Shown in pieces: positions 13,534 to 31,616 of a stretch of 32,898 nt of DNA. Below the pieces are notes generated by a model that saw only the letters and a program-made list of their open reading frames with translations, searched no databases and was not told where the DNA came from. Source of the stretch: Actinobacteria bacterium RBG_16_68_21 (GTDB taxonomy: Bacteria > Actinomycetota > Acidimicrobiia > Spongiisociales > UBA11373). The DNA is taken from contig MELR01000005.1 of assembly GCA_001767695.1 (NCBI GenBank), positions 259-33,156 of the forward strand, given 5' to 3'. Position 1 is the stretch's first letter. The number at the start of each line of letters is the position of its first letter. A program made the translations under genes and the position numbers.

Positions 13534-14577
13534 TCACGGCTCGACGATGACCTTGAGGGCGTCGTCGCGGCGCTCATCGAAGGTTGCCAGCGCCTCGCCG
13601 AACCGGTCGAGGGAGAAGGTGTGGGTGTGGATCTCGCTTACGCGGATTCGCCCGTCGGCCACCAGTGGGATCACGTGGCGCATCTCTCCCGCCGTCGCCC
13701 TCACGCCCACAAGCTCCTTCTCGTAGAGCACGAGGTCCTGCAGAGAAAGGGTGACGTCATCCACCGGGATGCCCACCGCGGCGATCCTTCCGCCCTTGCG
13801 CAGCATGGCGATTGCCCAGCGGAAAGAGTCGGCGACACCGGCGCAGTCGAGCACCACGTCGGCTCCCCGGCCGCTGGTTACCGCCGCGGTGGCGGCGACA
13901 GGATCCTCGGATGCATAGTCCACCACCTCGTTCCCCATGGCCTGTGCCTTGCCGAGCCGTCCCCCGCGGCCGACGACGATCACCCGGCCTGCCCCCATTG
14001 CCCTGGCGGCATCGGCGGCGAGCAGGCCGATCGGCCCGGGCCCAAGCACCGCCACTGTGTCCCCTGGTTGCACCCCGCCTCGCCGGGCGGTGTGCAGGGC
14101 GATCGAGGCCGGGTCGAGCAGCGCTCCCTGGGCGAAGGTGAGCGTGTCGGGGAGGTGAAACACCGATTTCAGCCCATGTACCACGAACTCGGCGAAGGCT
14201 CCCTGCCAGGTGTGCCCGTAATGGCGGTGGACTGTGGGGTCCCCGTAGTTCTCACACAGGTTGTAGCGGCCCTCGATGCAGGCCCGGCAGAAGCCGCAAG
14301 CGTCGTGTGACGTCCCGGAGACGCGGTCTCCAACCGACCAGCCATGGGTTGCGGCGTTCTCCCCGAGGGCGACCACCTCACCCGCCCACTCGTGCCCGGG
14401 GATGAACGGATACGCCGGTGGCCAGAATCCTGCATAGTCGCCCCTGACCAGGTGGGAGTCGGTGCCGCAGATCGAGGCTGCCCTGACGCGACAAAGCAGC
14501 TCGTTTCGTTCGGGTGTGGGCGCGTCGACGTCGCGAATCGAATAGTCGTTTGGTGCCGCCAATACCAGCGCCTTCAC
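13534..14577 (-). CDS. Zinc-dependent alcohol dehydrogenase (MDR family)
   Basis: A 347-aa medium-chain dehydrogenase/reductase. Catalytic zinc ligand candidates are Cys37 (ICGTD), His62/Glu63 (GHEW) and Asp155; structural zinc Cys94, Cys97, Cys100 and Cys108. The nucleotide-binding motif is GPGPIG at 179-184. It resembles threonine dehydrogenase and sorbitol/polyol dehydrogenases, so an NAD-linked oxidation of a secondary alcohol is likely. It starts at ATG 14577, 7 nt after the cyclase stop, and is the last gene of the leftward hydroxylase operon. The substrate is unknown. Confidence 0.9.
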   Translation of the reverse strand: MKALVLAAPNDYSIRDVDAPTPERNELLCRVRAASICGTDSHLVRGDYAGFWPPAYPFIPGHEWAGEVVALGENAATHGWSVGDRVSGTSHDACGFCRACIEGRYNLCENYGDPTVHRHYGHTWQGAFAEFVVHGLKSVFHLPDTLTFAQGALLDPASIALHTARRGGVQPGDTVAVLGPGPIGLLAADAARAMGAGRVIVVGRGGRLGKAQAMGNEVVDYASEDPVAATAAVTSGRGADVVLDCAGVADSFRWAIAMLRKGGRIAAVGIPVDDVTLSLQDLVLYEKELVGVRATAGEMRHVIPLVADGRIRVSEIHTHTFSLDRFGEALATFDERRDDALKVIVEP

Positions 14578-14584
14578 GGCTCGC

Positions 14585-15475
14585 TCAGACCACCGCGAGC
14601 GGATCGACCATCGACCCGGTGGCTCCGCGGATCTTTACGGGCAGCATCACGAAGAGGAACTCGTACACGCGATCGCGGGCGATCTCTTCCAGGTACACGC
14701 TCTCGAGGAGGTAGATCCCATTCTCGATCAGCAGTTTCGTGTGGACCGGCTGCGGGTTGGCGGGGGTGCCTCGGTCGGGGGCGGGCTGGACCTCGTAGGT
14801 CTCGGTATCGGTCCCGGTGGCGACCACACCTTGCTCCAGCAGCCACTCGGCAGCCGACAGGTCGGGCCCGGCGGTCTTGTGCTTGAGCATCTCATCGGCG
14901 TCGGGCCAGTACTTCAGGTACCCGGTGCGAATCAGCACGACGTCCCACCGGCGGACCTCGACCCCCTGTGCCTCGGCGATCGCCTGCAACTCGTCGGCCC
15001 CGACCGGCTCCCCGGCGGGCAGCGCGTCGATGCCCCGATGCGTCGGCGGATCGAGCAGCACACCTCGGGTGAAGAACGGTGGCAGCTTCTCGGCGTCGCC
15101 GACCAGCGGGCCGTGGTCGGAGAGATGCTCGCCGGTGTTGCCTCCTCCGTACCAGTGGTTGTCGTCGCCGATGGTCATGTGACCGAGGGCATCGACGTGG
15201 GTGCCGGAGTGTGAGGTGGCCATGACGTACTCGGCCATGTACCCCAGCCCGACATCGTTGGGAGGCCCCCACGGCTGAGCCTTCTCCGCCTTGATCCCCG
15301 GGGGAGTGCGGTAGTTGAGCACCTGAAACGGAGGATGACCGGGGAACAGCGGCATCCCGGGGAACCGGGAGGCCGCCAGCGAGTAGTACTTGCCCTGGGT
15401 GACCATCTGGGCGGCGGCCACCATCGCGGCCGGGGGAATGTCCTTGACGGGACCGACGTGGCGATACTCGGTCAT
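14585..15475 (-). CDS. Cyclase-family metal-dependent hydrolase
   Basis: A 296-aa protein of the cyclase/kynurenine-formamidase-like family. The metal-binding motif is HSGTHVDALGH (residues 89-99), with His89, His93, Asp95 and His99. Family relatives hydrolyse N-formyl amides, isatin and other cyclic amides, or act in polyketide cyclisation. The ATG at 15475 overlaps the end of the large hydroxylase subunit (stop from 15472). Next to a molybdenum hydroxylase, a ring-opening or amide/lactone-hydrolysing role is reasonable, but this is inference. Confidence 0.85.
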   Translation of the reverse strand: MTEYRHVGPVKDIPPAAMVAAAQMVTQGKYYSLAASRFPGMPLFPGHPPFQVLNYRTPPGIKAEKAQPWGPPNDVGLGYMAEYVMATSHSGTHVDALGHMTIGDDNHWYGGGNTGEHLSDHGPLVGDAEKLPPFFTRGVLLDPPTHRGIDALPAGEPVGADELQAIAEAQGVEVRRWDVVLIRTGYLKYWPDADEMLKHKTAGPDLSAAEWLLEQGVVATGTDTETYEVQPAPDRGTPANPQPVHTKLLIENGIYLLESVYLEEIARDRVYEFLFVMLPVKIRGATGSMVDPLAVV

Positions 15476-17712
15476 GTCTTCTCCTTCATCGCTCGCCAGA
15501 CGTTCTCAGGAGAAAGCGGCAGCCGGCGCACCACGGCGCCGGTGGCATCACGGACCGCGCCGGCAACCGCGGGCGCGGTACACAGGAGGCTGCCTTCGCT
15601 GATTCCTTTGATCCCGTAGGGGCCGGGTCCGTCGGCATTCTCGATGGAGAAGCTGTGGAGCTCGCCGGGAAGGTCCAGGCTCGTGGGGATTCGGTAGTCG
15701 ATGGCCCCCAAGTTCCGGGTGCGGCCCTTGTCATCGAGGATCAGGTGCTCCATGAGGGCGTGGCCGATACCCATGATCGCCGCCCCTTCGTCCTGACCGG
15801 TGACCTGGACGGGATTGAGGGCCAATCCGACATCACCGACCGTCACATGGCGGAGGATGGTGACCTCACCGGTTTCCGGATCGACGGCGACATCGCACGC
15901 GGTGCAGTTGAACTCGAAGAACAGCGCGGTGCCTCCCAACGGATGGTCGGGGAAGGCCTCCTTGCGAGCCTCGCCGTTGCCGACCACCTCGCCGCCCATC
16001 CGACCCAGGCCGGCCTTGAGCACATCCACTATCGGAAGCTCGGCGTCGGGGAGGTGGACCACACCTCGGTCCACGGTGATCTCCGCCTCCTCCACGTCGT
16101 GGAGGCGCGCCGCCATGGCCCGGATCTTGCGCTGGATGTCACGGCAGGCATCGAGGACGGCGTTCCCCATGAGGACCGATGACCGGCTTGCCGACGTTTG
16201 CTGGTCGTAGGGAACCACTGCCGTGTCCCCCATCACAACGGCAACCCGGTCGAGGGAAACCCCCAACTCCTCGGCGGCGATCTGAGCGAAGATGGTGCGC
16301 GCCCCCTGACCCATGTCGGAGGTGCCCGAAAAGACCATCACGCTGGCGTCGGCGAGGAACCGGACCGTCGCATAGGACAGGCCGGTGGTGGGTCCGGACT
16401 TGACCCCGATGGCGATGCCCCGTCCCTGTCCCGGAGGCAGCGGGGTTCCCCAGTGGATCTCCTCGGCCGCCTTGCGCACCGTCTGCGCCCAGTCACCGTC
16501 GGCCGGAGTATCCCCTGGGACATGCTCCTCGCCGTAGCGGACCAGGTTGTGCAGCCGGATCTCGAGGCGGTCGATGCCGAGGGCGATCGCCGCCTCGTCG
16601 AGGCAGGACTCCCGGGCCCAGGTGACCTGGGGAATTCCGAAGCCGCGGTAGGGATGGGTCGGGGTGGTGTGGGAGAGGATCGCCTGGGAGACGATCCGCA
16701 CCGCCGGGGTCCGGTAGGGACCAGCGGACAGGAAAGACGCCTTGGCGCTGATCCGGTCGCCGGTGTCGCCGTAGGCCCCGATCAGGAACCGATTCACGTA
16801 ATCCTGGAACACCAGTGTTCCGTCGGACTTCAGACCCATACGGACCTTCACCTCGGTCCCCGCTCTCCGCACCCCCTGGAATGCCTCCTCGAGACTGAGG
16901 ATGAGCCGGACCGGCCGACCGGCGCGCATTGCCATGAACGCCACGAGCGGCTCCAGTTTGGGATGCTGTTTGCCGCCGAACCCGCCTCCGGGATCCGGGG
17001 CGATGACCCGCACCTTCGACAGCGGCATGCCGAGCACGGTGGCGACGGTCTTCTGCAGCTGATAGGGGTGCTGGATGCTGCTCCACACGATGATGCCATC
17101 ACCGTCTGGAGCGGCGATGTAGCCGTGCGGCTCGATGGCGAAGTGCGTCTGCATCGGCCACGCGTAGGTGTGCTCGACGACCATGTCGGCATCCATGGCA
17201 TCGACGTCCCCCCAGCCAAAGTGGTACTCGGTGAGGATGTTCGTCTCGGTGAAAGGTCCCGGCCGCCGGATCGACGGATCCTGAATCAGCTCCGCCGCCG
17301 GGTCGAGCGCGGCTTCGACCGTGAAGATGGCGGGGAGCTCCTCGAACTCGACCTTCACCAGGGTCGCCGCCTCTTCGGCGGCATCCTTGGTCTCCGCCAC
17401 CACTGCGGCGACCGGCTCGCCGTGGTAGTTGGTCGTTCCCTCGGCAATCACGGGACGGTCCTGGTATTGGGGACCGAATCGCGGCATCGGGGTGGGGAGA
17501 TCGTCGGCGGTCATCACGAAGACGACCCCGGGGACCTTCTCCGCCACCGAAGTGTCGATCGACAGGATGCGGGCGTGCGCGCAATCAAGGGCGACCAGCT
17601 TGGCGTGGAGAGTGTCGGCGATGGGGAGGTCCGCCACGTAACGCTGGTGTCCGGTGACCCGGTCGATCCCGCCGAGGCGCTGGGCGGGTGCACCGATGTT
17701 GTCGACCTTCAT
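15472..17712 (-). CDS. Molybdenum hydroxylase large (molybdopterin-binding) subunit, xanthine dehydrogenase/aldehyde oxidase family
   Basis: A 746-aa catalytic subunit that binds molybdopterin and hydroxylates an N-heterocycle or aldehyde carbon. The N-terminal a/b-hammerhead domain starts at GIDRVTGHQRYVADL. GGGFGGK is at 242-248, PYRGFG at 354-359 and GTSDMGQG at 463-470. The C-terminal KGISEGS (702-708) holds the likely catalytic Glu706. The CO dehydrogenase active-loop motif AYRCSFR is absent, so it is not a form I CoxL. The ATG at 17712 overlaps the small-subunit stop (ATGA); a longer open frame to 18045 runs through the small-subunit gene and is rejected. The order M-S-L is typical. The substrate is unknown. 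Confidence 0.93.
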   Translation of the reverse strand: MKVDNIGAPAQRLGGIDRVTGHQRYVADLPIADTLHAKLVALDCAHARILSIDTSVAEKVPGVVFVMTADDLPTPMPRFGPQYQDRPVIAEGTTNYHGEPVAAVVAETKDAAEEAATLVKVEFEELPAIFTVEAALDPAAELIQDPSIRRPGPFTETNILTEYHFGWGDVDAMDADMVVEHTYAWPMQTHFAIEPHGYIAAPDGDGIIVWSSIQHPYQLQKTVATVLGMPLSKVRVIAPDPGGGFGGKQHPKLEPLVAFMAMRAGRPVRLILSLEEAFQGVRRAGTEVKVRMGLKSDGTLVFQDYVNRFLIGAYGDTGDRISAKASFLSAGPYRTPAVRIVSQAILSHTTPTHPYRGFGIPQVTWARESCLDEAAIALGIDRLEIRLHNLVRYGEEHVPGDTPADGDWAQTVRKAAEEIHWGTPLPPGQGRGIAIGVKSGPTTGLSYATVRFLADASVMVFSGTSDMGQGARTIFAQIAAEELGVSLDRVAVVMGDTAVVPYDQQTSASRSSVLMGNAVLDACRDIQRKIRAMAARLHDVEEAEITVDRGVVHLPDAELPIVDVLKAGLGRMGGEVVGNGEARKEAFPDHPLGGTALFFEFNCTACDVAVDPETGEVTILRHVTVGDVGLALNPVQVTGQDEGAAIMGIGHALMEHLILDDKGRTRNLGAIDYRIPTSLDLPGELHSFSIENADGPGPYGIKGISEGSLLCTAPAVAGAVRDATGAVVRRLPLSPENVWRAMKEKT

Positions 17713-18185
17713 CGGCCCGCTCCCTCCGCAGAAGACATGATCGCCGCACTGATCTGCTGGTACCCGGCGCACCTGCAGAGGTTTCCGGCCAGGGCCTCGT
17801 TGATGTCGTCGATCGTGGGGTGGGGGTTGCGCTGCAGGAGGGCGTGGGCCGACATCAGCTGCCCCGGGATGCAGAAGCCGCATTGGGCGGCACCTTGTTC
17901 GAGGAACGCCTGTTGGAGGCGATCCAGGTGGCCGTCGGTGGCCAGGCCCTCGACGGTGAGGACGTCGGCCCCGTCGGCTTCGACGGCGAGCATCAAGCAC
18001 GAGTTCATGGGCACGCCGTCGATGAGGACGGTGCAGGCGCCGCATTCACCGACCACGCAGCACTCCTTGGTGCCGGTGAGCCCGATGTCATCCCTGAGTA
18101 CCTCGAGCAGGGTGTGGTTCACGGCGACATCGAACGAGCGCACCCGCCCGTTGACCGTCATCTCGACTTGCATCATCTCGTTCAT
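17709..18185 (-). CDS. Molybdenum hydroxylase small (2Fe-2S) subunit
   Basis: A 158-aa electron-transfer subunit with two [2Fe-2S] clusters. The plant-type cluster uses Cys43, Cys48, Cys51 and Cys63 (CVVGECGAC followed by NSC); the second uses Cys102, Cys105, Cys137 and Cys139 (CGFC and CRC). Length and spacing are normal for the family. It overlaps its upstream (FAD) and downstream (Mo) partner genes by 4 nt each, implying coupled translation. Confidence 0.95.
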   Translation of the reverse strand: MNEMMQVEMTVNGRVRSFDVAVNHTLLEVLRDDIGLTGTKECCVVGECGACTVLIDGVPMNSCLMLAVEADGADVLTVEGLATDGHLDRLQQAFLEQGAAQCGFCIPGQLMSAHALLQRNPHPTIDDINEALAGNLCRCAGYQQISAAIMSSAEGAGR

Positions 18186-19045
18186 GGCACCCTCGTCTGG
18201 CGTTCGATGGCGGTGCGCAGGGCTCGCGCCCCGAGAACCGGCAGCATGGCGACACGGTACTCAGGGCCGGCGCGCATCGATTTCGGAGACGGACTGGCGG
18301 CGGAAAACATGCTGGCGAGGACCGGGGCCTTGGCCTCGTCACTCGCTGCTGGGTCGGCCAACACGCCGCTGTTGTCGATCACGAGTAGCGCCCTGGGCCC
18401 GACGCTGCCGTAAGCGAGCCTGGTGGTGCCGGTGGCGTCGACCCCGCAGCACAGCGTGATCGATGCAAGGTCGGTGCCCCGTCTGCGGGTCATCCGGGTA
18501 TAGGCCGCAGCGATCGGGGTCGCGGAGATCGGGATCTCGATCGAGGTGACCAGTTCGGTCGGCTGGAGATCGACCTTCCCCGGCCCGATGATGAAATCGT
18601 CGACCGCCACACGGCGGGTGCCGTTCTTGGCAGCGATGACGACCTCGGCACCGTAAACCAACAGCGGGGGGGCGGTGTCGGCCGCCGGGGATCCGTTGCA
18701 GATGTTTCCGGCGAGGGTGGCCCGGTTGCGAATCTGGATCGAGCCGACGACGTCGGCCGCCTCGGCCAATGCTGGGAAGTGGAGCTGCACCCTCTCATCG
18801 GCCACGATCTCCGACATCACCGCCAGAGCGGTGAACACCAGCCGCCCTTCCACCTCACGAATCGGAGGGCGCAGTTCCTCGATTCGCTTGAGGTCGATGA
18901 CGATCTTGGGCCGGCGCCAGCGGTTGCGCAGCTCTATCACTAGGTCGGTTCCTCCGGCGAGCACCCGGGCGGCGTCCCCGTGCTCCTGGAGGAGGGCGAG
19001 CGCCTCGTCGATCGTGCCCGGCCGTCGGTAGCCGAAGGACTGCAT
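18182..19045 (-). CDS. Molybdenum hydroxylase medium (FAD-binding) subunit
   Basis: A 287-aa FAD subunit that passes electrons from the iron-sulfur subunit to the final acceptor. AGGTDLVIELRNR (near residue 30) and TLAGNICNGSPAADT (near 110-125) are the family FAD-binding motifs. The ATG at 19045 is preceded by GGAAGGAT. It follows the HPr-kinase-like gene by 33 nt, so the two are probably cotranscribed. The family call is firm. Confidence 0.93.
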   Translation of the reverse strand: MQSFGYRRPGTIDEALALLQEHGDAARVLAGGTDLVIELRNRWRRPKIVIDLKRIEELRPPIREVEGRLVFTALAVMSEIVADERVQLHFPALAEAADVVGSIQIRNRATLAGNICNGSPAADTAPPLLVYGAEVVIAAKNGTRRVAVDDFIIGPGKVDLQPTELVTSIEIPISATPIAAAYTRMTRRRGTDLASITLCCGVDATGTTRLAYGSVGPRALLVIDNSGVLADPAASDEAKAPVLASMFSAASPSPKSMRAGPEYRVAMLPVLGARALRTAIERQTRVP

Positions 19046-19078: not shown

Positions 19079-19963
19079 TCATAGAACCCGATCCGCCTCG
19101 TCCATCAGCGCTTGCGGCGTGGCGGCCCGGATCATGTAGTAGGGGCGGGTACAGAACCTACTGAGGAACTCCGCCCGACTGCGCCGGCGCTCTTCGGTGT
19201 CCACCACCGGCATCGGCCAGCCCGAGGCGAGCAGCTCATTGAGGTGGAAGTAGTTCTGCACAGAATGCAGTGATTGATACTCGCGCTCGTAGGGGATCAT
19301 CTCGGCGAGGCTCGGGTCGAAGTTGCCGTCGATCGCCGGGACCAGCACGACGTCGACGTTGCTGGCGTCGGGGTATTCCGACCAGGTGGGCATTTCGTCC
19401 CCGAAGAAGATCTGTGCGCCCCGTTCGGGGGCCGCCTTGTCGGCGCGCTCGGTACCCTTCTCGCGGTTCTTGATGAACACCGTCTTCGAACCGGCCACCG
19501 CGGACCCGACATCGTCGATGATCGTGGTCTCGGTGGAGATCAGCAGCCCTCCCCGGCGGCACGCCTCGATCTGGCTCATGCTCTTGCCGTGGTTGGACTC
19601 GCCGCCGAGCAGGAGCACGGTCTTGTCGCGGTAGCGCACTGCTGCGGAGTGGAAGGGGTGCAGCCCTGCCGCCTCCATGCGCAGGGCGAGCAGCGTGATG
19701 ATCGATTTCTGGATCGGTCCCACCGCCCAGCCGCCATTGAAGTGGATCACGCGCCCGTCCCACGTCACGGAGAGATCCGATCCGTCCAGGTTCCACACCA
19801 GATCCGGGTCGGCAAGGGTTACCTCGGGCTCCTTGTGCACCGCGGCGAGCCGGTAGTTGAGGAATTCCATGCTCTCGAGCACGTGGTCAGGCACCTTGGA
19901 TCCGATCACGTCGACCCGGATTCGGGCCGGTCCCGCCGACATCTCTTCAGTCAGCTGTGGCAT
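19079..19963 (-). CDS. HPr kinase-like P-loop protein
   Basis: A 294-aa protein whose central region resembles the C-terminal domain of HPr kinase/phosphorylase and related PEPCK-fold P-loop proteins. HPFHSAAV (102-109) is followed by a Walker A GGESNHGKS (120-128), an RRGG turn (136-139) and IIDD (148-151), where HPr kinases have their conserved Asp pair. Such proteins use ATP to phosphorylate a Ser or small molecule, but no HPr or PTS gene is nearby. The ATG at 19963 follows GAAGGAG. The gene precedes the molybdenum hydroxylase FAD subunit by 33 nt and lies downstream of the phosphohistidine protein, separated by a hairpin. Possible roles are a dedicated kinase or a maturation factor; its target is not known. 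Confidence 0.65.
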   Translation of the reverse strand: MPQLTEEMSAGPARIRVDVIGSKVPDHVLESMEFLNYRLAAVHKEPEVTLADPDLVWNLDGSDLSVTWDGRVIHFNGGWAVGPIQKSIITLLALRMEAAGLHPFHSAAVRYRDKTVLLLGGESNHGKSMSQIEACRRGGLLISTETTIIDDVGSAVAGSKTVFIKNREKGTERADKAAPERGAQIFFGDEMPTWSEYPDASNVDVVLVPAIDGNFDPSLAEMIPYEREYQSLHSVQNYFHLNELLASGWPMPVVDTEERRRSRAEFLSRFCTRPYYMIRAATPQALMDEADRVL

Positions 19964-20136: not shown

Positions 20137-21867
20137 CTAGCTCAGGATCTGGACGAGGCCCTTCGTGCCGTCGACCCGAATCCGATCGCCGGTCTTGATC
20201 CTCAACGTGGCAATCGAGGTCCCGATGACCGCCGGGATTCCGAACTCCCGGGCCATGACCGCGGGGTGTGACACCACACCACCGGCATCGGTGACGATCC
20301 CGCTGATCACCGCGAACAGCGGCGTCCAGGCAGGGTTGGTCATCTGGCAGACCATGATGTCACCGGGGTTGACCTCGTCGAACTGGTCGATGCTCATCAC
20401 CACCCTGGCGACGCCCTCGACGGTGCCGGGCGATGCTGCCAGGCCGACCACCTCGCCCTTGCCCGCCTCGGCCCTGTTCAGCTTCTCGGGGAAGCCCCAC
20501 AGGTTGAGGTACGGGAAGGCCAACTGGCTCTCGGTGGCGGTGCCGATGAAGTCGGCGGGACGGAGCTTGTAGGACTCCAGCCGCTCCTGGCGGCGCTTCT
20601 TGACGATGCTCCGGGCGTCGTAGTTCTTGAGGTCGCCGAGCAGATACCGCAGCTCGTTGTACTTCAAGAAGATCACGTCGTCGGGTGCATCCAGCACGCC
20701 CTCCTGGACCAGCTTCTTGCCGATGCAGATGAGGACGACCCGCACGTGCTGGTTGGTCCCCTGATCGATGTAGAAGTGGTGGTCCGGGGTCAGCGGCGCC
20801 ATCTTCAGGTTGATCTCGTTGGCCGCCTTCATCTTCTCCAGGGCTTCGCCCTCGAGACCGGCGAGCAGTTCCTTGGAGGCGGCGGCGATGTCGTCGGCCA
20901 GGGCCTTGACCGCAGTCGGGTAGTCGTAATCCGACTCGATGTAGCCCTTGATCAAGTCGAGCACCGGGCCGGCCTCTTCGAAGCGGCTCGGGAAGATGAA
21001 CTCGTGGCTCCAGACCGCATGCCAGCCGAACTCACGCTGGTAGGCGCCGACGTCCTCGAGCAACTTCTTGCCCTCGGCGGTCTTGTCGAGCGCGGCGTGG
21101 ATCTCCATGCCGGTGCCCGAAGCAAACGCCGCGCCAAGGGTCTTGCTCTTCTTCGCCTTCTCCTTGATCTTCCACAGGGTCTCGATGGCGTCCCAGTTGC
21201 GGTCCGCCGCCGAGTTCTGCAACCGGCCGAGCAATGCATCGTCGACCGTGCCTCGAACCTCCTCGACCACGGCGCGGAGGTTGAGCGTCGCCGACAGCTG
21301 GGCGAAATTGAGCATCCAATGGATCTTCCAGTGGCGATCGTGGACATCGATCGCGTCCTCGAGGATCACCGCCCACTCCATGAGCGGGATCTCCTCCCAC
21401 TTGAAGACCTTCGACTCCAGGTAGTCGAGGTTGCGCCGCATCTCGGGAACGAGGCGCTCCCTCCACCAGGTGGCAAAGTTCAATCCGTAGGTGGGGAGGA
21501 CGGCACCCAGGTACGCCCCGATCTTTGCCGGATACTCCGGATCCAGGTTGATCCGCGGGGTGTAGGTGCTCCCGTATTCCATCGCCGGAACGGAGAAGTC
21601 CGGGTCCTGCGGGATTGCCGCCGTGTACAGGTAGCCATTCACGTTCTTGGCAGTCCAGTCCACCGCAAACGGCGTGCCGAACCGACGGAACATGTGATCG
21701 CAGCTCATCCACCACCCGCCGATGTCGAAGTACATCGGCGAGAGGGGCTGTGGGCAGTGGAGGTCGTCGTAGACCCAGAAGAGCTTCTTCTCGGTCTCGG
21801 AGTCCCACTTGACCGGGAACTCCTTCGACCCGAAGAACTCCGCTACCACCTTGCTCGTGTCAGCCAT
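20137..21867 (-). CDS. Stand-alone PEP-utilising (phosphohistidine swivel) domain protein
   Basis: A 576-aa protein ending in the mobile phosphohistidine domain of PEP synthase, pyruvate phosphate dikinase and rifampicin phosphotransferase: GGVVSHPAVMAREFGIPAV with His534 as the expected phosphate carrier. It lacks both the ATP-grasp domain and the C-terminal PEP/pyruvate barrel; the protein ends 42 residues after the His. The first 500 residues are helical, with a distinctive Trp-rich N-terminus. This layout recalls the alpha subunit of phenylphosphate synthase, which needs a separate ATP-binding subunit; none is in the window. The ATG at 21867 follows GAAAGGGGAT and lies 17 nt after the UPF0261 gene. 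A role in phosphorylating a pathway substrate is inference. Confidence 0.75.
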   Translation of the reverse strand: MADTSKVVAEFFGSKEFPVKWDSETEKKLFWVYDDLHCPQPLSPMYFDIGGWWMSCDHMFRRFGTPFAVDWTAKNVNGYLYTAAIPQDPDFSVPAMEYGSTYTPRINLDPEYPAKIGAYLGAVLPTYGLNFATWWRERLVPEMRRNLDYLESKVFKWEEIPLMEWAVILEDAIDVHDRHWKIHWMLNFAQLSATLNLRAVVEEVRGTVDDALLGRLQNSAADRNWDAIETLWKIKEKAKKSKTLGAAFASGTGMEIHAALDKTAEGKKLLEDVGAYQREFGWHAVWSHEFIFPSRFEEAGPVLDLIKGYIESDYDYPTAVKALADDIAAASKELLAGLEGEALEKMKAANEINLKMAPLTPDHHFYIDQGTNQHVRVVLICIGKKLVQEGVLDAPDDVIFLKYNELRYLLGDLKNYDARSIVKKRRQERLESYKLRPADFIGTATESQLAFPYLNLWGFPEKLNRAEAGKGEVVGLAASPGTVEGVARVVMSIDQFDEVNPGDIMVCQMTNPAWTPLFAVISGIVTDAGGVVSHPAVMAREFGIPAVIGTSIATLRIKTGDRIRVDGTKGLVQILS

Positions 21868-21884: not shown

Positions 21885-23231
21885 CTAAGGCGACGGAACC
21901 GAGTACCGGTCGGGAGAGGACAGGTGTCGATTCCCCGACTGCGCTTCTCGCCGCTCGTTGCTGTGCCTTTCTGGGTTCTCGATCTGGTCTCTTTGTTGGT
22001 AACTACCGGAGCGATGCCATTCGCGATAGAGCCGATCGACGCATTCGGCCATGGCAGAAGCGAACTTCGGGTCGTTGATGTCTGTGTCCATCTCCACGAC
22101 CTCGATCGACGGGTCGAGGTTCGCTCGCAGACTCCCGAAGAGCGCCCGGTCTGCCATCGGATCGTGGAACACGCCACCCTCGACGGCGATCGCCGAGATC
22201 CCGCGCAGGGGGACGAACACGGCCACCGGACCGGTGGCGGCGTTCAGCTTGGCAGCCACGATCTCACCGAGCCGGGCACACTCCTCAGGAGTGGTCCGCA
22301 TCAGCGTGATCGCCGGGTTGTGGGCGTAGAGATTGCGATCGCGGAAACGATCGGGCACGGTTTCAATGGGGCCGAAGTTGGCGATGTCCAGGGATCCCAG
22401 CGACACCACCTGGGGGAGGCCGAGGCTGCCGGCGACTTCCAGCCGTTCCGGTCCCGCCGAGAGCACTCCGCCGATCAGCTCGTCGGCCAGCTCGGTGGTG
22501 GTGACGTCGAGGACACCGGTGATGAGGCCCTGCCGCATGAGAGCTTCCATCGACCGGCCCCCCGCCCCGTTGGCATGGAACACCAGCACCTCGTACCCGT
22601 GGTCCTCCAGCCAGCGGCGGGCGGCGGTGACCCCGGCGGTGGTCACCCCGAACATGGTCGCCGCGATCACGGGACCGGGCTCCACCGACCCGTTCGGGGT
22701 GGCGTGGGCGCGGGCCATCCCGGCGATCGCCGCCGCGGCGTTACCCAGAACCTTTCTGAGGATCTGATTGAGGCCGGAGATGTCCACCACCGAGTGCATG
22801 AGGGTGACGTCGGACCCGCCCACGAACTCCCTGGTGTCGCCGGAGGCCATCGTGGTGACGATCATCTTGGGGAACCCGATCGGCAGCCCCTGCACGGCCA
22901 GGGCGACCAGGGATGTACCGGAAGAACCGCCCATGCCGGCCACGGCGTCGATTCGATGGGTTGCGGCCATCTCGGCCAGGATGCTCCTGGCACCTCGCGC
23001 CATGGCGGCGACGACCGCTCCCCGGGGTCCCCGAGCGACCAGGCGGTCGATCTTCACCCCGGCGGCGGCAGCTACCTCGGATCGGCTGATGTCGGGGGAG
23101 ACCAGCGGCTCGCCGAGGACACCCACGTCCACCAGTACCACTTCGCAGCCGAGGACTTCGATGCGCCGCTTGAGGAAGCGGTATTCCGCTCCCTTGGTGT
23201 CGAGGGTCCCGACCAGCGCGACTGTTGGCAC
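21885..23231 (-). CDS. Tm-1-like ATP-binding protein (UPF0261 family)
   Basis: A 448-aa protein of the UPF0261/Tm-1-like family. The N-terminus VPTVALVGTLDTKGAEYRFL is the family hallmark, followed by GMGGSSGTSL and PIGFPKMIVTTMASGDT, then the second domain around FGVTTAGV and HANGAGGRSMEALM. Related proteins are ATP-binding; their metabolic role is unclear. I prefer the GTG at 23231, with GGGAG 5 nt upstream; a GTG at 23261 has no spaced ribosome site. About 40 C-terminal residues after LYREWHRSG look unconserved, polar and less GC-rich. It heads an operon with the phosphohistidine protein and is preceded by the shared promoter/dyad. Confidence 0.85.
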   Translation of the reverse strand: MPTVALVGTLDTKGAEYRFLKRRIEVLGCEVVLVDVGVLGEPLVSPDISRSEVAAAAGVKIDRLVARGPRGAVVAAMARGARSILAEMAATHRIDAVAGMGGSSGTSLVALAVQGLPIGFPKMIVTTMASGDTREFVGGSDVTLMHSVVDISGLNQILRKVLGNAAAAIAGMARAHATPNGSVEPGPVIAATMFGVTTAGVTAARRWLEDHGYEVLVFHANGAGGRSMEALMRQGLITGVLDVTTTELADELIGGVLSAGPERLEVAGSLGLPQVVSLGSLDIANFGPIETVPDRFRDRNLYAHNPAITLMRTTPEECARLGEIVAAKLNAATGPVAVFVPLRGISAIAVEGGVFHDPMADRALFGSLRANLDPSIEVVEMDTDINDPKFASAMAECVDRLYREWHRSGSYQQRDQIENPERHSNERREAQSGNRHLSSPDRYSVPSP

Positions 23232-23273
23232 GGTGTCTCCCGTGGAGGTGCACTCCCGCACCCCACAATGCTC

Positions 23274-23382: not shown

Positions 23383-24615
23383 TCAGGCGCCGAACGCCTC
23401 GAGCAGCGGTAACGGCTGACCGGCCACGTGCCGGATGAGCGCTCCCCCGCCGGTGCTGACGTGGTCGAGGCGACCCGGGTCGATGAAACGCCGCGCGCTG
23501 GCGACCGTGTCGCCTCCCCCGATGACCGTCGTGGCATCCGTGGCGGCCAATGCCTGCCACAGCCGTCGGGTTCCGACATCGCCCCCCGCGGTCTCATATG
23601 CTCCCGGCGGGCCGTTGACGAACACGGTCCCGGCGGCGGCGATCTCCCGCTCATAGGCGGTGATGGTCTCCTCGCCGATATCGGTGACCAAGAGGTTGAT
23701 CGGGAGATCGGTCAACGCCACCTCGCGGCGCTTCCCGTTTTCGATCGCCGCCACGTCGGCGGGGAGCGCGATCCGATCCCGATGCTCGGCGAGGAGTCCC
23801 TCGGCGAGAGTGACAAAGCGCCCGAGGTCACGATCGGCGATGAATCGGGCGGTCGGCTCGCCGAGGTCGATCCCGGTGGCCGTCAGCATGACTTCCCCGA
23901 CGAGACCTGCGGTTAGCACCCGATCGGCGATCTTCTCCCCGAGCACTCGCCCCATGATGGAGAAGCCATCGGAGATCTTGAGCCCGCCCAAGATGAACAC
24001 TGCCGGCCGGGATGGATCGTCCACCAACCGGCTGACCGCGCTCAACTCGGCGAACAGCAGCCGCCCCGCCGCCGACGGCATCAACCTCTGAAAGGCGGTC
24101 ATCGAGGGAGAGCCGCGATGGGCGGCGGCGAAGGCATCGTTCACATAGCAGTCGAACAAGGGAGCCAGGTTGCGTACCAGGTACGTCTCGGCCATCTGTT
24201 CGCGGGTCAGTTTGACATCCCGCTCAAAGGTGGATACTTCTTCGGTGAGGTAGCGGAGGTTGTCGAGGAGGAGGATCTCTCCGTCGTCGAGAGCGGCGAT
24301 CCGGGCCCGCGCTGCCGGGCCGGCGACGTCGTCGATGAAACCGACCGGGCGGCCCAGTTTGACGGCGAGCCGGTCGGCGTGCTGCCCGAGGCCGACCAGG
24401 TTGTGATAGTCGAGGGTGTCGCCCTGGTGGGCGATGATCACCAGTCGGGCGCCGCGGTCGGCGAGGTCCTCGATCGTCGGCAGGCTCTGGTCGATCCGGT
24501 TCTCGTCGGCGATCAGGCCCGTTTCGGGGTCGATCGGGGAATTGATGTCGACCCGGAGCAGAACCCTCTTACCGGCGACGTCGATGTCGTCGATCGACGG
24601 GAACGCCTTTGCCAT
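23383..24615 (-). CDS. pgk: Phosphoglycerate kinase, divergent
   Basis: A 410-aa protein of the phosphoglycerate kinase family, which transfers phosphate from 1,3-bisphosphoglycerate to ADP. The RVLLRVDINSPID start, the LLLDNLR segment, NDAFAAAHRGSPSM, FILGGLKISDG, FVNGPPGAYE, GGGDTVAS and STGGGA are all recognisable. Several positions deviate from the bacterial norm: IIAHQGDTLDYHN replaces the SHLGRPKG substrate-binding segment and NRIDQSLPT replaces the usual RIxAALPT. This looks nearer to archaeal PGK or to an enzyme with a changed substrate. It starts at ATG 24615, 2 nt after the GAPDH stop, so the two are cotranscribed. Confidence 0.88.
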   Translation of the reverse strand: MAKAFPSIDDIDVAGKRVLLRVDINSPIDPETGLIADENRIDQSLPTIEDLADRGARLVIIAHQGDTLDYHNLVGLGQHADRLAVKLGRPVGFIDDVAGPAARARIAALDDGEILLLDNLRYLTEEVSTFERDVKLTREQMAETYLVRNLAPLFDCYVNDAFAAAHRGSPSMTAFQRLMPSAAGRLLFAELSAVSRLVDDPSRPAVFILGGLKISDGFSIMGRVLGEKIADRVLTAGLVGEVMLTATGIDLGEPTARFIADRDLGRFVTLAEGLLAEHRDRIALPADVAAIENGKRREVALTDLPINLLVTDIGEETITAYEREIAAAGTVFVNGPPGAYETAGGDVGTRRLWQALAATDATTVIGGGDTVASARRFIDPGRLDHVSTGGGALIRHVAGQPLPLLEAFGA

Positions 24616-24617
24616 CC

Positions 24618-25637
24618 CTACTCCATGCCCAGATATCGGTTGGTGAGCGCCAGTGCCTCGGCCTGATCCTCCTGCATGGGGATCGCCGCCCGGATGGCGT
24701 CGATGGTCTCGGGGATCGTGACCGACTCCTGCGGGATGTTGATGGCGAACATCAGGTCGTCGCCGGAATGGCCCACCGTTTCCTCGAACAGGCCGATCTC
24801 GTACATGTCGCCCCTGGGGTGGCCGAGGAATCGGGCATAGTTGAACAGCGACGTGTTGGTGGTGAACCCGTCGGCGATCCGCACCGAACGCACCCGCGGA
24901 TGAGCACGGAAGATGTCGATGGCCTCGCCGTCGGAGATGGGCTTCTTCGGCGTGGCCACGATCGTGATGATGTGACCGTGGGTTATCGGGGTGTGCACCA
25001 GCAGTCCGGTGGCGTCGACGTGGGGCATGATCTCCATCAGGTCGACCGCCTGGTGGTTGGGGATCGGCTCAATCTGCAGCGAGTCGACCAGCCCCCGGTG
25101 GGTGTCGCCCGGGTCGGCGACCCGGCGGATGATGGTGATCGCCACCTTGGTGATGCCCACCGCCTTGTCGAGGGCATCGACGGCTCGGATCAACCCGGTG
25201 GTGTTGCACGAGGTGAGCTTGAGGTAGTTCTGCCCGACGCCCTTGGCGTAGTTGGCGTAGCCGTGGAAGAAGACGTCGGCGATCTTGCCGGACTCGCCGC
25301 CCTGGAAGACCGCCTTCACTCCAGCGGCGAGGTACTGCTCCTTGTTCTTGGCGCCTATCCCACCCGGGGCGGCGTCGAGCATGATGTCGACATCACCGAT
25401 CAGGTCGGCGAAGGTGCCCGAGACCTTGATCCCGGCGGCGCTCAGGACATCCTCGGCGCCGGGGGCGGCGGTGAACAGGCGGTAGGGCATCCCCCGCTCG
25501 GCGAGTGCCCGCACCGGCAAAGTTGGAGCGACGTCGGCGACGCCGATCAGCTCCATGTCCTCCTGGCGGGCCACTCCGTCGGCGAGACGCTGGCCGATCA
25601 CTCCGTAGCCGGCTACTCCGACCTTCACCTTGCTCAT
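24618..25637 (-). CDS. Type II (archaeal-type) glyceraldehyde-3-phosphate dehydrogenase
   Basis: A 339-aa NAD(P)-dependent phosphorylating dehydrogenase of the archaeal type II class, which is distinct from bacterial GapA. The N-terminal VKVGVAGYGVIGQRLADGV Rossmann motif, FQGGESGK, the catalytic SCNTTG (residues 143-148, Cys144), RRVADPGD and the C-terminal IPETIDAIRA segment match the archaeal pattern closely. The ATG at 25637 follows GGAGGAATGCG. Paired with a PGK, it would convert an aldehyde phosphate to an acyl phosphate and then to an acid with ATP gain. Whether the substrate is glyceraldehyde-3-phosphate or a related phospho-aldehyde is open. Confidence 0.88.
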   Translation of the reverse strand: MSKVKVGVAGYGVIGQRLADGVARQEDMELIGVADVAPTLPVRALAERGMPYRLFTAAPGAEDVLSAAGIKVSGTFADLIGDVDIMLDAAPGGIGAKNKEQYLAAGVKAVFQGGESGKIADVFFHGYANYAKGVGQNYLKLTSCNTTGLIRAVDALDKAVGITKVAITIIRRVADPGDTHRGLVDSLQIEPIPNHQAVDLMEIMPHVDATGLLVHTPITHGHIITIVATPKKPISDGEAIDIFRAHPRVRSVRIADGFTTNTSLFNYARFLGHPRGDMYEIGLFEETVGHSGDDLMFAINIPQESVTIPETIDAIRAAIPMQEDQAEALALTNRYLGME

Positions 25638-27787: not shown

Positions 27788-27867
27788 GGCGGCCGAAATC
27801 CTCTGGATGGCAGTCGTCCCAGCCGGTTACCTGAGCGCGTCCGGGGAGTGTGGGAAGGAGACGGCAT

Positions 27868-28875
27868 ATGCTCAAGGCCGCCCAGGTCGGACTCGGCTGG
27901 TGGGGCAGCCAGGTGACCAAGGTCCTGCAGGGAAGCGAGAAGATCGAGATCGTCTGCGGGATCGACCCGAGTGAGGAGATGCGGGACAGGTACCACGCCG
28001 CCCATGGTCTGCCGGTCCTCGCGGACTACGCCCAGGCTCTCGAGAGCGAGGACGTCGCAGCCGTCATCCTCACCATTCCCCACCGACTCCACGAGGAGTC
28101 TGTGATCCGGGCCGCCGCCGCCGGCAAGCAGGTCTTCTGCGAGAAGCCGTTGTCACTCGGCGTGGAGAGCGCCCGGCGGATGATCGACGCCTGCGACGCC
28201 GCGGGCATCGTCCTCGGTATTGGCCACGAGCGCCGCTTCGAACCGGCCTGGGAGGAGATCAAGCGGATGGCCGATGCGGGGGAGCTGGGCACCATCCTCC
28301 ACATGGAGGCCCATTGGAGCCACGATCGATGGCTGAACATGGCGGCGGACAACTGGCGGGGCAGCAAGGAGGAGGCGCCTGCGGCGGGTTGGACGGGGAT
28401 GGGTGTCCATCTGAGCGACATGATGCTCAGCCTCGCCGGCCAGGTCGCCGAGGTCCATGCGTACACCGCGCGGCGGATCCTGGTCATCCCCACCGGGGAC
28501 GTCGTCTCGGCACACCTTCGGTTCGTCGACGGCGCCACCGGTCACATCGGAGCCGTGTCGGCGACTCCCGATTACGCCCGATTCGCGGTGTTCGGCAGCC
28601 TCGCCTGGGCGGAAGCCCGAGAGACGCAGCATGTCGACCCGGGCGGGACCACACACTTCTACGTACGGCGTCGCGGTGAAGCGGAGCAGACCCGGCGGGA
28701 CTTCGAACCCGCCAGCCCGGTGCGGGCCGGTTATGAGCACTGGGCCGATGCGGTTGCCGGCCGGGTCCCTTACCGGTTCACCAACGAGCAACGCTTGGGC
28801 AACGTGGCGGTCCTGGAGGCAGTGGTCCGCTCCGCCGATGGCGGCCGGCCCGTGGCCGTCGCACAGTACTCCTGA
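27868..28875 (+). CDS. Gfo/Idh/MocA-family oxidoreductase
   Basis: A 335-aa NAD(P)-dependent dehydrogenase for sugars, inositols or related compounds. The N-terminal Rossmann motif is VGLGWWGS (residues 7-14), the family EKP motif is at 92-94 (CEKPLSL), and GVHLSDMMLSLAG (about 175-187) carries the likely catalytic His with the typical HxxD spacing. AAGGAG lies 7 nt before the ATG at 27868. It is followed by modABC after 85 nt. A sugar or inositol substrate supports the sugar-type pathway, but the exact one is unknown. Confidence 0.9.
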   Translation: MLKAAQVGLGWWGSQVTKVLQGSEKIEIVCGIDPSEEMRDRYHAAHGLPVLADYAQALESEDVAAVILTIPHRLHEESVIRAAAAGKQVFCEKPLSLGVESARRMIDACDAAGIVLGIGHERRFEPAWEEIKRMADAGELGTILHMEAHWSHDRWLNMAADNWRGSKEEAPAAGWTGMGVHLSDMMLSLAGQVAEVHAYTARRILVIPTGDVVSAHLRFVDGATGHIGAVSATPDYARFAVFGSLAWAEARETQHVDPGGTTHFYVRRRGEAEQTRRDFEPASPVRAGYEHWADAVAGRVPYRFTNEQRLGNVAVLEAVVRSADGGRPVAVAQYS

Positions 28876-28960
28876 GGGCTCGCGGCCAACCCGCCGGGCC
28901 GAGCCGTCGGCATATCCTCGGTCCAACCATTACTCGTCGCGGAGACCCAGGGAGGCTCGA

Positions 28961-29728
28961 GTGACCGAACGGTTCCGACTCGTTGCGGCGGCCCTCGTGG
29001 TAACTGCCGTGGCAGCCTGCGGCGACCCGGCGCCGACCGGCCACGCCGTCGTGGAGGGCGAAGTGCTGGTGTCGGCCGCGGCCTCCCTCACCGACGCCTT
29101 CGGGGAGATCTCCGTGGCATTCGAGGTGGCTCATCCCGGGGTCGATGTCGTGGTCAACCCGGGAGCCAGCTCGGCACTGCGCGAACAGATCCTGGCGGGG
29201 GCTCCGGTGGACGTGTATGCCTCGGCGAACCAGGCGAACATGGACCGGCTGGTGGCGGTTGGCCAGGTTGCCGGGAAACCTCAGGTCTTCGCCCGCAACC
29301 TCCTCCAGATCGCGGTGCCGCCGGGCAACCCCGCCGGAGTCACCGGACTGGAGGACTTCGCCAACCCCGACCTCCTGATCGGGCTATGCGCCGCAGGGGT
29401 TCCCTGCGGCGACTTCGCCCGCCAGGCGTTGCACAATGCCGGGGTGACGGCAGCGATCGACACCAACGAACCAGACGTGAGGGCGCTGCTCACCAAGATC
29501 GAGGCGGGAGAACTCGACGCCGGAATCACCTACGTCACCGACGTCTACTCGAGCGGCAGCGCGGTGGAGGGCATCGAGATTCCTGGGGACGTCAATGTGG
29601 CCGCCGAGTACCCGATCGCCGCGCTGTCCCACGCTCCGAATCCCGCTGCTGCCGCGGCGTTCGTCGCCTTCGTGGTCTCTGGTGAAGGGCAGTCGATTCT
29701 GGCTCGCTACGGCTTCGCCTCGCCGTGA
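28961..29728 (+). CDS. modA: Molybdate ABC transporter substrate-binding lipoprotein ModA
   Basis: A 255-aa lipoprotein that captures molybdate outside the membrane. The signal peptide ends in VAAC with Cys20. The mature protein starts VLVSAAASLTDAFGEIS, the ModA hallmark, followed by NPGASSALREQILAGAPVDVYASAN with the oxyanion-binding Ser residues. The GTG at 28961 follows GGAGG by 5 nt. It overlaps modB by 4 nt. It would supply molybdenum for the hydroxylase encoded at 15472-19045. Confidence 0.93.
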   Translation: MTERFRLVAAALVVTAVAACGDPAPTGHAVVEGEVLVSAAASLTDAFGEISVAFEVAHPGVDVVVNPGASSALREQILAGAPVDVYASANQANMDRLVAVGQVAGKPQVFARNLLQIAVPPGNPAGVTGLEDFANPDLLIGLCAAGVPCGDFARQALHNAGVTAAIDTNEPDVRALLTKIEAGELDAGITYVTDVYSSGSAVEGIEIPGDVNVAAEYPIAALSHAPNPAAAAAFVAFVVSGEGQSILARYGFASP

Positions 29729-30537
29729 CCTCGGAGCGCCGTGGCCAGCGACGGATGCCGGGTCGACCCCCGGTGGTCTTGATCGTCCTCGGATGCCTCG
29801 GTCTGGCCCTGTTCGTGGTGCCGTTGGCGGGCTTGGTGGCGCGTACCCCCTGGTCGCGACTCCCGGACCTGCTCACCGGCGACGTGGTCGCCGACGCTCT
29901 CCGGCTGTCGCTGATCACGTCGCTGGCTTCCACGGTGATCGCCCTCGTCCTCGGCGTGCCGCTGGCGTGGCTGCTGGCCCGGGTCGACTTCCCGGGGCGG
30001 GCGGTGGTCCGCGCCGTCGTCACCCTTCCCCTGGTGCTCCCCCCGGTTGTGGGCGGCGCCGCACTGCTCTTCGCCCTGGGCCGCCGTGGCCTGGTCGGAG
30101 AACCACTCAACCGGCTCACCGGGCTCTTGCTCCCCTTCTCCACCTGGGGAGTGATCATCGCCGCCACGTTCGTGGCCATGCCGTTCATGGTGATCACGGT
30201 CGAGGGGGCGCTGCGCAATCTCGACCGGCGGTATGAGGGGGCAGCGGCCAGCCTGGGAGCGGGACGGTGGACCGTGCTCCGCCGGGTGACGCTGCCGATG
30301 ATCGGGCCTTCGCTGGCGGCTGGCCTCGCGCTCACCTGGGCGAGGGCTTTCGGAGAGTTCGGGGCCACCATCACCTTCGCCGGAAACCTCCAGGGCAGGA
30401 CCCAGACACTCCCGCTGGCGGTGTTCGTCGCCCTGGAGAGCGACCGGGAAACCGCCGTCGCCATCAGCTTGCTGATGGTGGCCGTCTCTCTCGCCGTTCT
30501 GATCGCCCTGCGCGACCGCTGGTGGAGGGCGCTGTGA
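29725..30537 (+). CDS. modB: Molybdate ABC transporter permease ModB
   Basis: A 270-aa inner-membrane permease with about five to six membrane segments. The cytoplasmic EAA-type loop EGAAASLGAGRWTVLRRVTLP, followed by ARAFGEFGATITFAGN, is the ModB/CysT signature. It starts at GTG 29725, overlapping the modA stop, and its own stop overlaps modC. The N-terminus (MTSERRGQRRMPG) is short and basic. Confidence 0.93.
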   Translation: MTSERRGQRRMPGRPPVVLIVLGCLGLALFVVPLAGLVARTPWSRLPDLLTGDVVADALRLSLITSLASTVIALVLGVPLAWLLARVDFPGRAVVRAVVTLPLVLPPVVGGAALLFALGRRGLVGEPLNRLTGLLLPFSTWGVIIAATFVAMPFMVITVEGALRNLDRRYEGAAASLGAGRWTVLRRVTLPMIGPSLAAGLALTWARAFGEFGATITFAGNLQGRTQTLPLAVFVALESDRETAVAISLLMVAVSLAVLIALRDRWWRAL

Positions 30538-31616
30538 TCGACGGACCCGGCCTCAGAGCGCACTTCGAGCTGCGACGGTCGGAAGCGTTCCGACTCGACA
30601 TCGATGTGACGATCCCGCCGGGGACGACCGGCGCCCTGCTCGGGCCCAACGGAGCGGGCAAGTCGACGGCGGTCGCCGCCATCGCCGGGCTGGTTCCCAT
30701 CGACCAGGGGCGTATCGAACTGGCTGGTGCCGTCCTCGACGACCCGGGCACTGGGGTGTTCGTTCCGTCCGAAGCCCGTCGGATCGGCGTGGTGTTCCAG
30801 GACTACCTCTTGTTCCCTCACCTCGACGTGATCGAGAACGTCGCCTTCGGCCTGCGCTCCCGTGGTGTGGGACGGGATGAGGCGCGCGCCCGCTCCGGGG
30901 AGTGGATACGCCGCCTTGGACTCGATGGGATGGAGCGGCACAAGCCCGGTGACCTGTCCGGGGGCCAGGCGCAGCGAGTGGCACTGGCGCGCGCTCTGGT
31001 GACCGAGCCGGACCTGCTGCTCCTCGACGAGCCGCTGGCCGCGCTCGACGTCACCACCCGGTCGCGGCTGCGGAGAACGCTCCGCGAGCACCTGGATGGT
31101 TTTGCCGGACCCCGGCTGCTCATAACGCACGATCCCACCGAGGCCTTTCTCCTCGCCGACGAGATCCACGTGATCGAAGACGGCGTCGTCACGCAGAGCG
31201 GCACCGCCGACGACGTCAGGCTCCGCCCCCGGACCCGCTACGCCGCGGACCTCGCCGGAGCCAATCTGCTGGTAGGCACGGCGTCGGGAGGCGCGGCGAC
31301 CGTCGGAGCCCACGTCTTCCACATCGCCCACGGCGATGTGGCCGGTCCGGTGCTGATCACCATCCATCCCACCGCGATCTCGGTGCACCGGGCGCCACCC
31401 GAAGGAAGCCCCCGCAACGCCTGGGTGACCACGATCGAACGTATCGAGGATCTCGGGGAAAGGGTGAGACTGCGGACTGGGGCGCCCGTGGCGTTGACCG
31501 TTGAGATCACCAAGCAATCCACCGAGGCGCTCCACCTGACTCCCGGCGAGTCGGTGTGGATCGCGGTCAAGGCGACTGAGATCGGCGTGGAAAGCAACGA
31601 CCCGACGCCGGCATGA
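30534..31616 (+). CDS. modC: Molybdate ABC transporter ATP-binding protein ModC
   Basis: A 360-aa ATPase. Walker A GPNGAGKST is at residues 37-45, LSGGQ at 141-145, Walker B LLLLDEP at 161-167 and the switch His in LLITHD. The C-terminal 70 or so residues form a TOBE/mop-like domain typical of ModC, which binds molybdate to regulate uptake. It starts at GTG 30534, overlapping the modB stop. A hairpin terminator follows at 31637. The frame continues upstream to 30267 inside modB and is rejected. Confidence 0.93.
   Translation: MIDGPGLRAHFELRRSEAFRLDIDVTIPPGTTGALLGPNGAGKSTAVAAIAGLVPIDQGRIELAGAVLDDPGTGVFVPSEARRIGVVFQDYLLFPHLDVIENVAFGLRSRGVGRDEARARSGEWIRRLGLDGMERHKPGDLSGGQAQRVALARALVTEPDLLLLDEPLAALDVTTRSRLRRTLREHLDGFAGPRLLITHDPTEAFLLADEIHVIEDGVVTQSGTADDVRLRPRTRYAADLAGANLLVGTASGGAATVGAHVFHIAHGDVAGPVLITIHPTAISVHRAPPEGSPRNAWVTTIERIEDLGERVRLRTGAPVALTVEITKQSTEALHLTPGESVWIAVKATEIGVESNDPTPA

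Follow-up and report, generated by a model that had tools for sequence, protein, structure and literature searches.

The stretch of Actinobacteria bacterium RBG_16_68_21 analysed here (32,898 nucleotides, hereafter the window) belongs to a genome assembly of 2.03 Mb that is 92% complete (G000). Its reverse strand carries an operon that includes genes for a predicted phosphotransferase subunit, a P-loop protein, the three subunits of a molybdenum hydroxylase, a cyclase-family protein, a zinc dehydrogenase and a UPF0261 protein. The features are listed in Table 1. The phosphotransferase ORF is real and intact, has an ATG start and encodes 576 aa. The neighbourhoods in relatives share the phosphotransferase, P-loop protein, molybdenum hydroxylase, cyclase-family protein and zinc dehydrogenase genes, and some of them also hold the UPF0261 gene.

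Table 1. Features of the operon in the window, with the basis of each assignment.
Feature	Coordinates	Strand	Basis
Predicted RPH/HpeH-type phosphotransferase subunit	20137..21867	(-)	PF00391, RPH profile and fold, His534 invariance
Swivel-domain core with TDAGGVVSH and His534	20158..20370	(-)	PF00391 at residues 500-570
UPF0261 (Tm-1-like) protein, upstream in operon, inconstant companion	21885..23261	(-)	PF06792/PF23189; 17/62 loci
HPrK/PEPCK-fold P-loop protein, 294 aa, in slot of ancestral ATP-grasp gene	19079..19963	(-)	Model fold, profile, conserved neighbour
Molybdenum hydroxylase FAD subunit (XdhB-like)	18182..19045	(-)	PF00941/PF03450; conserved neighbour
Molybdenum hydroxylase [2Fe-2S] subunit	17709..18185	(-)	PF01799 (E 8e-31), PF00111
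Molybdenum subunit (XdhA-like)	15472..17712	(-)	PF01315/PF02738/PF20256
Cyclase-family protein, operon-conserved	14585..15475	(-)	PF04199
Zinc alcohol/threonine dehydrogenase-like protein, operon-conserved	13534..14577	(-)	PF08240/PF00107

The ORF call for the molybdenum subunit (857 aa) extends too far: residues 1-111 are an out-of-frame reading of the overlapping [2Fe-2S] gene. Because the extra N-terminus has this origin, the true start of the XdhA-like protein is probably at 17712 (MKVDNIG). Just upstream of the operon, at 23383-25637 on the same strand, are genes for a phosphoglycerate kinase (410 aa) and an archaeal-type (type II) GAPDH (339 aa). Type II GAPDH is unusual in bacteria. Their position is the same in the relative G007; at the other orthologous loci they were not observed. 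Divergently from the operon, at 27850-31616 on the forward strand, lie genes for a GFO/IDH/MocA-type oxidoreductase and for the binding protein, permease and TOBE-domain ATPase of an ABC uptake system, and a similar oxidoreductase gene lies directly upstream of the phosphotransferase gene at loci L119, L122, L126 and L129.

The phosphotransferase subunit and the P-loop protein

A Pfam search of the 576-aa protein returned PF00391, the mobile domain of PEP-utilising enzymes, as the sole match (E 3.6e-24). The protein is laid out as an acceptor-binding body (approximately residues 1-465) followed by a phosphohistidine swivel domain (approximately residues 470-576). The Pfam search gave no PPDK_N (ATP-grasp) match inside the chain and no PEP barrel, the chain stopping after the swivel domain. 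A preliminary description of the locus had called it a His-domain protein without local ATP or PEP modules, which these searches bear out, and had considered its helical body unrecognised, which was wrong. NCBIfam PRK08296 models align across the helical body, and a profile built from 42 orthologues matched RPH over residues 230-576 (E 4e-40). The AlphaFold model (pLDDT 88.6) was compared with RPH structures 5fbt and 5hv1 using Foldseek and matched them over the whole chain, with E-values of 2e-20 to 4e-20, TM scores of 0.64-0.66 and sequence identity of 18-20%. His534 lies in the context TDAGGVVSHP and is invariant in 42/42 aligned orthologues. When a simple motif pattern was applied to 80 rows, 67 matched, all with His534, and the other 13 were cut or unmatched by the pattern.

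HpeH, CreH and PpsA each consist of an acceptor domain and a swivel domain and have separate ATP-grasp partners, HpeI, CreI and PpsB (PMC12167813). Since these proteins share the make-up of the window protein and pair with a separate ATP-grasp protein, the window protein would, by analogy, work like the acceptor half (HpeH/PpsA) of a two-component dikinase. Its domain content and RPH fold are as described above, and His534 would be the phosphorylated residue; the resulting picture is that of one half of a split, RPH-like small-molecule dikinase.

The 294-aa P-loop protein was predicted with high model confidence (pLDDT 91), and its model matched the folds of ATP-PEPCK (E 4e-8) and HPrK (E 8e-5) in the PDB. 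Its profile aligned with PEPCK over the Walker A motif (E 0.009), and the Walker A sequence GGESNHGK is invariant in 38 sequences of the protein. E145-T146 stands in place of the HPrK/PEPCK acid pair, an equivalence that is a reading of the alignment. Pfam searches with the P-loop protein of the window (threshold E 0.01) and with an orthologue (threshold E 1) gave no family, and an NCBIfam HPrK-related model scored below its curated family threshold (E 0.019; 14.4 bits against a cut-off of 252). The modelled structure has an HPrK/PEPCK P-loop fold with a Walker A motif; the protein is very likely to bind ATP and may be a kinase. This P-loop family, which has no Pfam or NCBIfam assignment, was met only in genomes that have the phosphotransferase, one incomplete genome apart, and among 397 genomes of a phylum sample only the window's own genome matched. 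We found no support for regulation of a Thr/Ser beside His534 by the P-loop protein, on the model of PEP synthase, since S or A occurs at position -1 and V, T or A at position -2.

Two exclusive operon types among orthologous loci

A clear orthologue of the phosphotransferase was present in 16 of 99 relatives (64-88% identity), and a scan of species genomes yielded 254 relatives, so that the protein is not a chance finding. The scan provided 80 orthologous loci, several of them from the same genomes as the G-numbered relatives. All of the genomes are drafts and most are MAGs, so that the absence of a gene may reflect incompleteness, and contig ends limit the view at the loci. Neighbour profiles of the 80 loci revealed an ATP-grasp gene in 16, a P-loop gene in 39 and both in none. 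At the 60 loci with at least 3.5 kb of downstream sequence, 14 had the ATP-grasp gene only, 35 the P-loop gene only, 0 both and 11 neither (Fisher p 3e-7, to be taken as a guide only since the test treats related loci as independent).

The two genes share one position. In relatives G022 and G091, which have no P-loop gene, the slot between the phosphotransferase gene and XdhB is occupied by a lone PEP-synthase-type ATP-grasp gene. The other 14 of the 16 phosphotransferase-positive relatives have the P-loop gene, and exactly this slot is the one that it takes, with or without a GntR gene in between. In the neighbourhood survey, which the preliminary description had proposed, the HPrK-like protein proved to be a near-constant companion of the phosphotransferase. 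The P-loop gene was found in 15 of the 99 relatives, the fifteenth being G043, a genome that is 56% complete and has the gene at a contig end. Searched genome-wide, it was absent from 11/11 ATP-grasp-type genomes and from 7 genomes with neither partner gene at the locus, and 4 further genomes without it at the locus had it elsewhere. A GntR/FadR-type regulator gene is present in most neighbourhoods of relatives and absent from the window and from G007. The gap after the phosphotransferase gene was considered as the place of a missing kinase and rejected: the gap gene in most P-loop-type loci encodes this FadR/GntR-type regulator, not an enzyme.

In the basal relatives, the histidine is presumably charged by the nearby lone PEP-synthase-type ATP-grasp protein. 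The window's lineage no longer has this ATP-grasp gene and carries the HPrK/PEPCK-fold P-loop gene in its slot. One explanation is that the P-loop protein also took over the function, transferring the gamma-phosphate of ATP to His534 with ADP rather than AMP as the product, which would have converted an ancestral dikinase to a monokinase. The shared slot, the strict exclusion, the near-constant presence of the gene where no ATP-grasp gene is adjacent and the invariant Walker A motif all speak for this explanation. Against it, HPrK phosphorylates serine and PEPCK a small molecule, so that a phosphohistidine product would be new, and the acid pair of both enzymes is replaced by E-T. We consider it a tentative explanation, well short of an even chance.

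The preliminary description had instead put forward the UPF0261 protein as the ATP partner, having correctly placed its gene directly upstream of the phosphotransferase gene in the operon. Tomato Tm-1, which binds ATP, is a relative of this protein. The UPF0261 domain corresponds to the N-terminal domain of Tm-1 (PMC5028733). However, the gene was present at only 17 of the 62 orthologous loci with enough upstream sequence and at 1 of 13 ATP-grasp-type loci. These neighbourhood counts largely refute UPF0261 as the ATP partner, and we rejected it as barely conceivable. We know of no phosphohistidine precedent for UPF0261, and a literature search for work linking UPF0261, HPr kinase and PEP-utilising enzymes found none.

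In the phosphotransferase tree, rooted on a Rhodobacteraceae group, the ATP-grasp type is basal, and three more ATP-grasp-type members lie next to Acidimicrobiia. The derived clade is made up of the P-loop type, with at least four separate absences of the P-loop gene inside it. The part of the tree without an operon ATP-grasp gene spans Acidimicrobiia and Chloroflexota. Only residues 447 (A versus Q) and 422 (S versus A), both outside the swivel domain, separate the phosphotransferases of the ATP-grasp type from those of the P-loop type; these residues say nothing about docking and were rejected as a signature of a partner switch. On contig C35 of relative G017 (locus L109, approximately 28.7-32.8 kb), a lone ATP-grasp gene adjoins a phosphotransferase-like paralogue with 28% identity to the window protein, forming an HpeIH-like pair. 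The same genome also has the P-loop type.

Candidate donors of phosphate to His534

A profile search of the window's genome for PPDK_N gave matches on contigs C24 and C31 only, and none in the window. PF00391 was matched only by the window protein and by the PPDK on C31, and not on C24. The genome therefore encodes one ATP-grasp protein that lacks a His domain (C24) and, not counting PPDK, a single protein with a His domain and no ATP-grasp (the window protein). The preliminary description had recommended a genome search for a lone PPDK_N protein and had accepted that a conserved ATP-grasp partner encoded elsewhere would count against its proposal; the search found one, at C24:1514-3295 (L009:1514-3295; 593 aa), and it belongs to a clade-conserved family, which largely corresponds to that refuting observation.

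Proteins of this C24 type usually consist of a PPDK-type ATP-grasp, their own His domain and a C-terminal domain of ~210 aa, in total ~710 aa, without a PEP barrel. They match PF01326, and a full-length member scores above the cut-off of PRK05878; the C-terminal domain has no Pfam match. Alignment of the C24 protein with eight orthologues showed that ~110 residues are missing in frame, exactly the His domain. The remaining ATP-grasp is 63-71% identical to those of the orthologues, the same as among other pairs, and retains the GNKG, SVRSGA, CDIEF and LQVR stretches, which we take to hold the catalytic residues of PPDK. Having lost its own His domain, the C24 protein would need the histidine of another protein.

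A C24-type protein with an ATP-grasp is present in 11 of the 99 relatives (counting the window's shortened copy), all of them positive for the P-loop gene, and in 0 of the 84 P-loop-negative relatives. It was absent from 11/11 ATP-grasp-type genomes searched and lies within the available flank of 22 of 64 non-ATP-grasp loci. At the P-loop-less loci L155, L158, L161, L169 and L172 the C24-type gene is just downstream of XdhA, and no lone ATP-grasp was seen in the genomes of these loci. Since these loci keep the C24-type protein, it must suffice there, if the enzyme works there. The loss of the P-loop gene in at least four places of the tree while the phosphotransferase stays speaks against the P-loop protein as the donor and suggests that its gene is dispensable where a C24-type protein is present. 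In G103, a small assembly, neither a C24-type protein nor a lone ATP-grasp was seen.

Other genomes show the reverse. In G007 and G012, the nearest relatives of the window's genome, the gene context of the C24-type gene (a GntR or racemase gene on one side and an isopropylmalate-dehydrogenase-like gene on the other) is kept, and only the C-terminal domain is left. G007 (97% complete) and G024 (95% complete) have no ATP-grasp protein besides PPDK, and both keep the phosphotransferase and the P-loop protein. Because the C-terminal remnants are syntenic, true deletion of the C24-type ATP-grasp is favoured over incompleteness. The P-loop protein, kept in these genomes, may thus suffice where the C24-type ATP-grasp has been lost, which is a further point for it as the donor. 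The lack of a dedicated ATP-grasp in G007 and G024 could also mean that the phosphotransferase is a relic that transfers no phosphate in the window's lineage. This is very improbable given that His534 and the surrounding motif are invariant, and that the ORFs are intact and the operon conserved in many genera. A stand-alone C-terminal domain gene similar to those of G007 and G012 is present in G004 (L251:6208-7143), broken by one in-frame TAG, which is either a sequencing error or a sign of a decaying gene. Overall, the ~210-aa domain occurs on PPDK-derived proteins (L009:1514-3295 and L112:9327-11468) and on its own (L249, L250 and L251), next to a racemase-like gene in L249 and L250.

The explanation we prefer is that the helical body of the window protein is the binding site of a small organic compound, which the protein phosphorylates by way of phosphate carried on His534 of its swivel domain. 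This reaction would belong to a catabolic route that also involves the molybdenum hydroxylase, the cyclase-family hydrolase and the zinc dehydrogenase. His534 would be charged in trans by the ATP-grasp of the PPDK-derived C24 protein, and the P-loop protein would either be a further kinase, acting in regulation or at a different step, or serve as an alternative donor. For the window's genome, which has both candidates, we give C24 as the donor an even chance of being correct; the role of the P-loop protein and the class of substrate are likewise put forward as predictions. Against C24, its gene is on a different contig from the phosphotransferase gene and is not co-transcribed with it, and its orthologues have their own His domain and no need of that of the phosphotransferase. 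C24 may be a relic on its way out, as G007 and G012, and separately G004, have lost the ATP-grasp and His domain and keep the phosphotransferase and P-loop protein. Judged by its place in the operon, the P-loop gene is at least as good a candidate for the donor as C24.

Alternatively, the P-loop protein might act in regulation or phosphorylate a different metabolite of the pathway, with His534 charged in some other way, for example by PPDK or by ATP-free exchange from a phosphorylated metabolite. Most of these genomes encode PPDK, and HpeH on its own transfers the phosphate of a phosphorylated phenol to a different phenol (PMC12167813), so the transfer itself can proceed without an ATP-grasp. 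However, this alternative, which we consider unlikely, leaves unexplained both the exclusion of the ATP-grasp and P-loop genes in one slot and the loss of the His domain in C24.

To our knowledge, use of an ATP-grasp module is common to the ATP-driven enzymes with a swivel histidine that have been described (PEP synthase, PPDK, RPH, PpsAB and HpeHI). The present clade has an unrelated ATP-binding fold in place of the operon ATP-grasp gene, and natural genomes represent different stages: a lone ATP-grasp next door, a PPDK-derived protein in trans, the same protein minus its His domain (the window's genome) and the C-terminal domain only. With such genomes, the identity of the protein that charges the histidine can be tested directly. 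If the P-loop protein does charge an RPH-type swivel histidine, phosphohistidine would be made in a new way and a dikinase would have been turned into a monokinase. The preliminary idea of a new type of phosphorylation system survives in part. Since the acceptor domain that forms the body is of RPH type, known dikinase chemistry is most likely, and the possible novelty lies in histidine charging by the HPrK-like protein, not by UPF0261. The analysis also marks an undescribed catabolic operon and a P-loop family for study.

Comparison with known systems

The nearest described relative in kind of the C24-type proteins, likened by description, is VadK (Rv1127c), a PPDK without a PEP-binding domain that autophosphorylates its own histidine (PMC13400623). 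Both combine a PPDK-type ATP-grasp with a His domain and have no PEP barrel. In contrast to VadK, the C24-type proteins add the C-terminal domain of ~210 aa, and the copy in the window's genome has no His domain of its own. PPDK and PEP synthase have a C-terminal PEP/pyruvate barrel that is missing from the window protein. RPH shares its acceptor and swivel fold with the window protein; however, RPH is a single chain with its own ATP-grasp, the window protein has none, their sequence identity is low, and there is no reason to expect rifampin as its substrate. The P-loop protein shares its predicted fold and the position of Walker A with HPrK and ATP-dependent PEPCK, members of the P-loop superfamily, and differs from them in its unusual P-loop, GESNHGKS, and its replaced acid pair.

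The window protein resembles in make-up, motif and fold the acceptor components of HpeHI, CreHI and PpsAB, with which it shares an acceptor body and a C-terminal swivel histidine in one chain, an RPH-like fold and the lack of a PEP barrel. The swivel motif T/SxxGGxxxH, described for HpeH, RPH, PpsA and CreH (PMC12167813), is present in the window protein as TDAGGVVSH. A neighbouring ATP-grasp gene, as in those systems, is found next to the basal orthologues and not in the window operon, which has instead a gene for an HPrK/PEPCK-fold protein, linked to a molybdenum hydroxylase.
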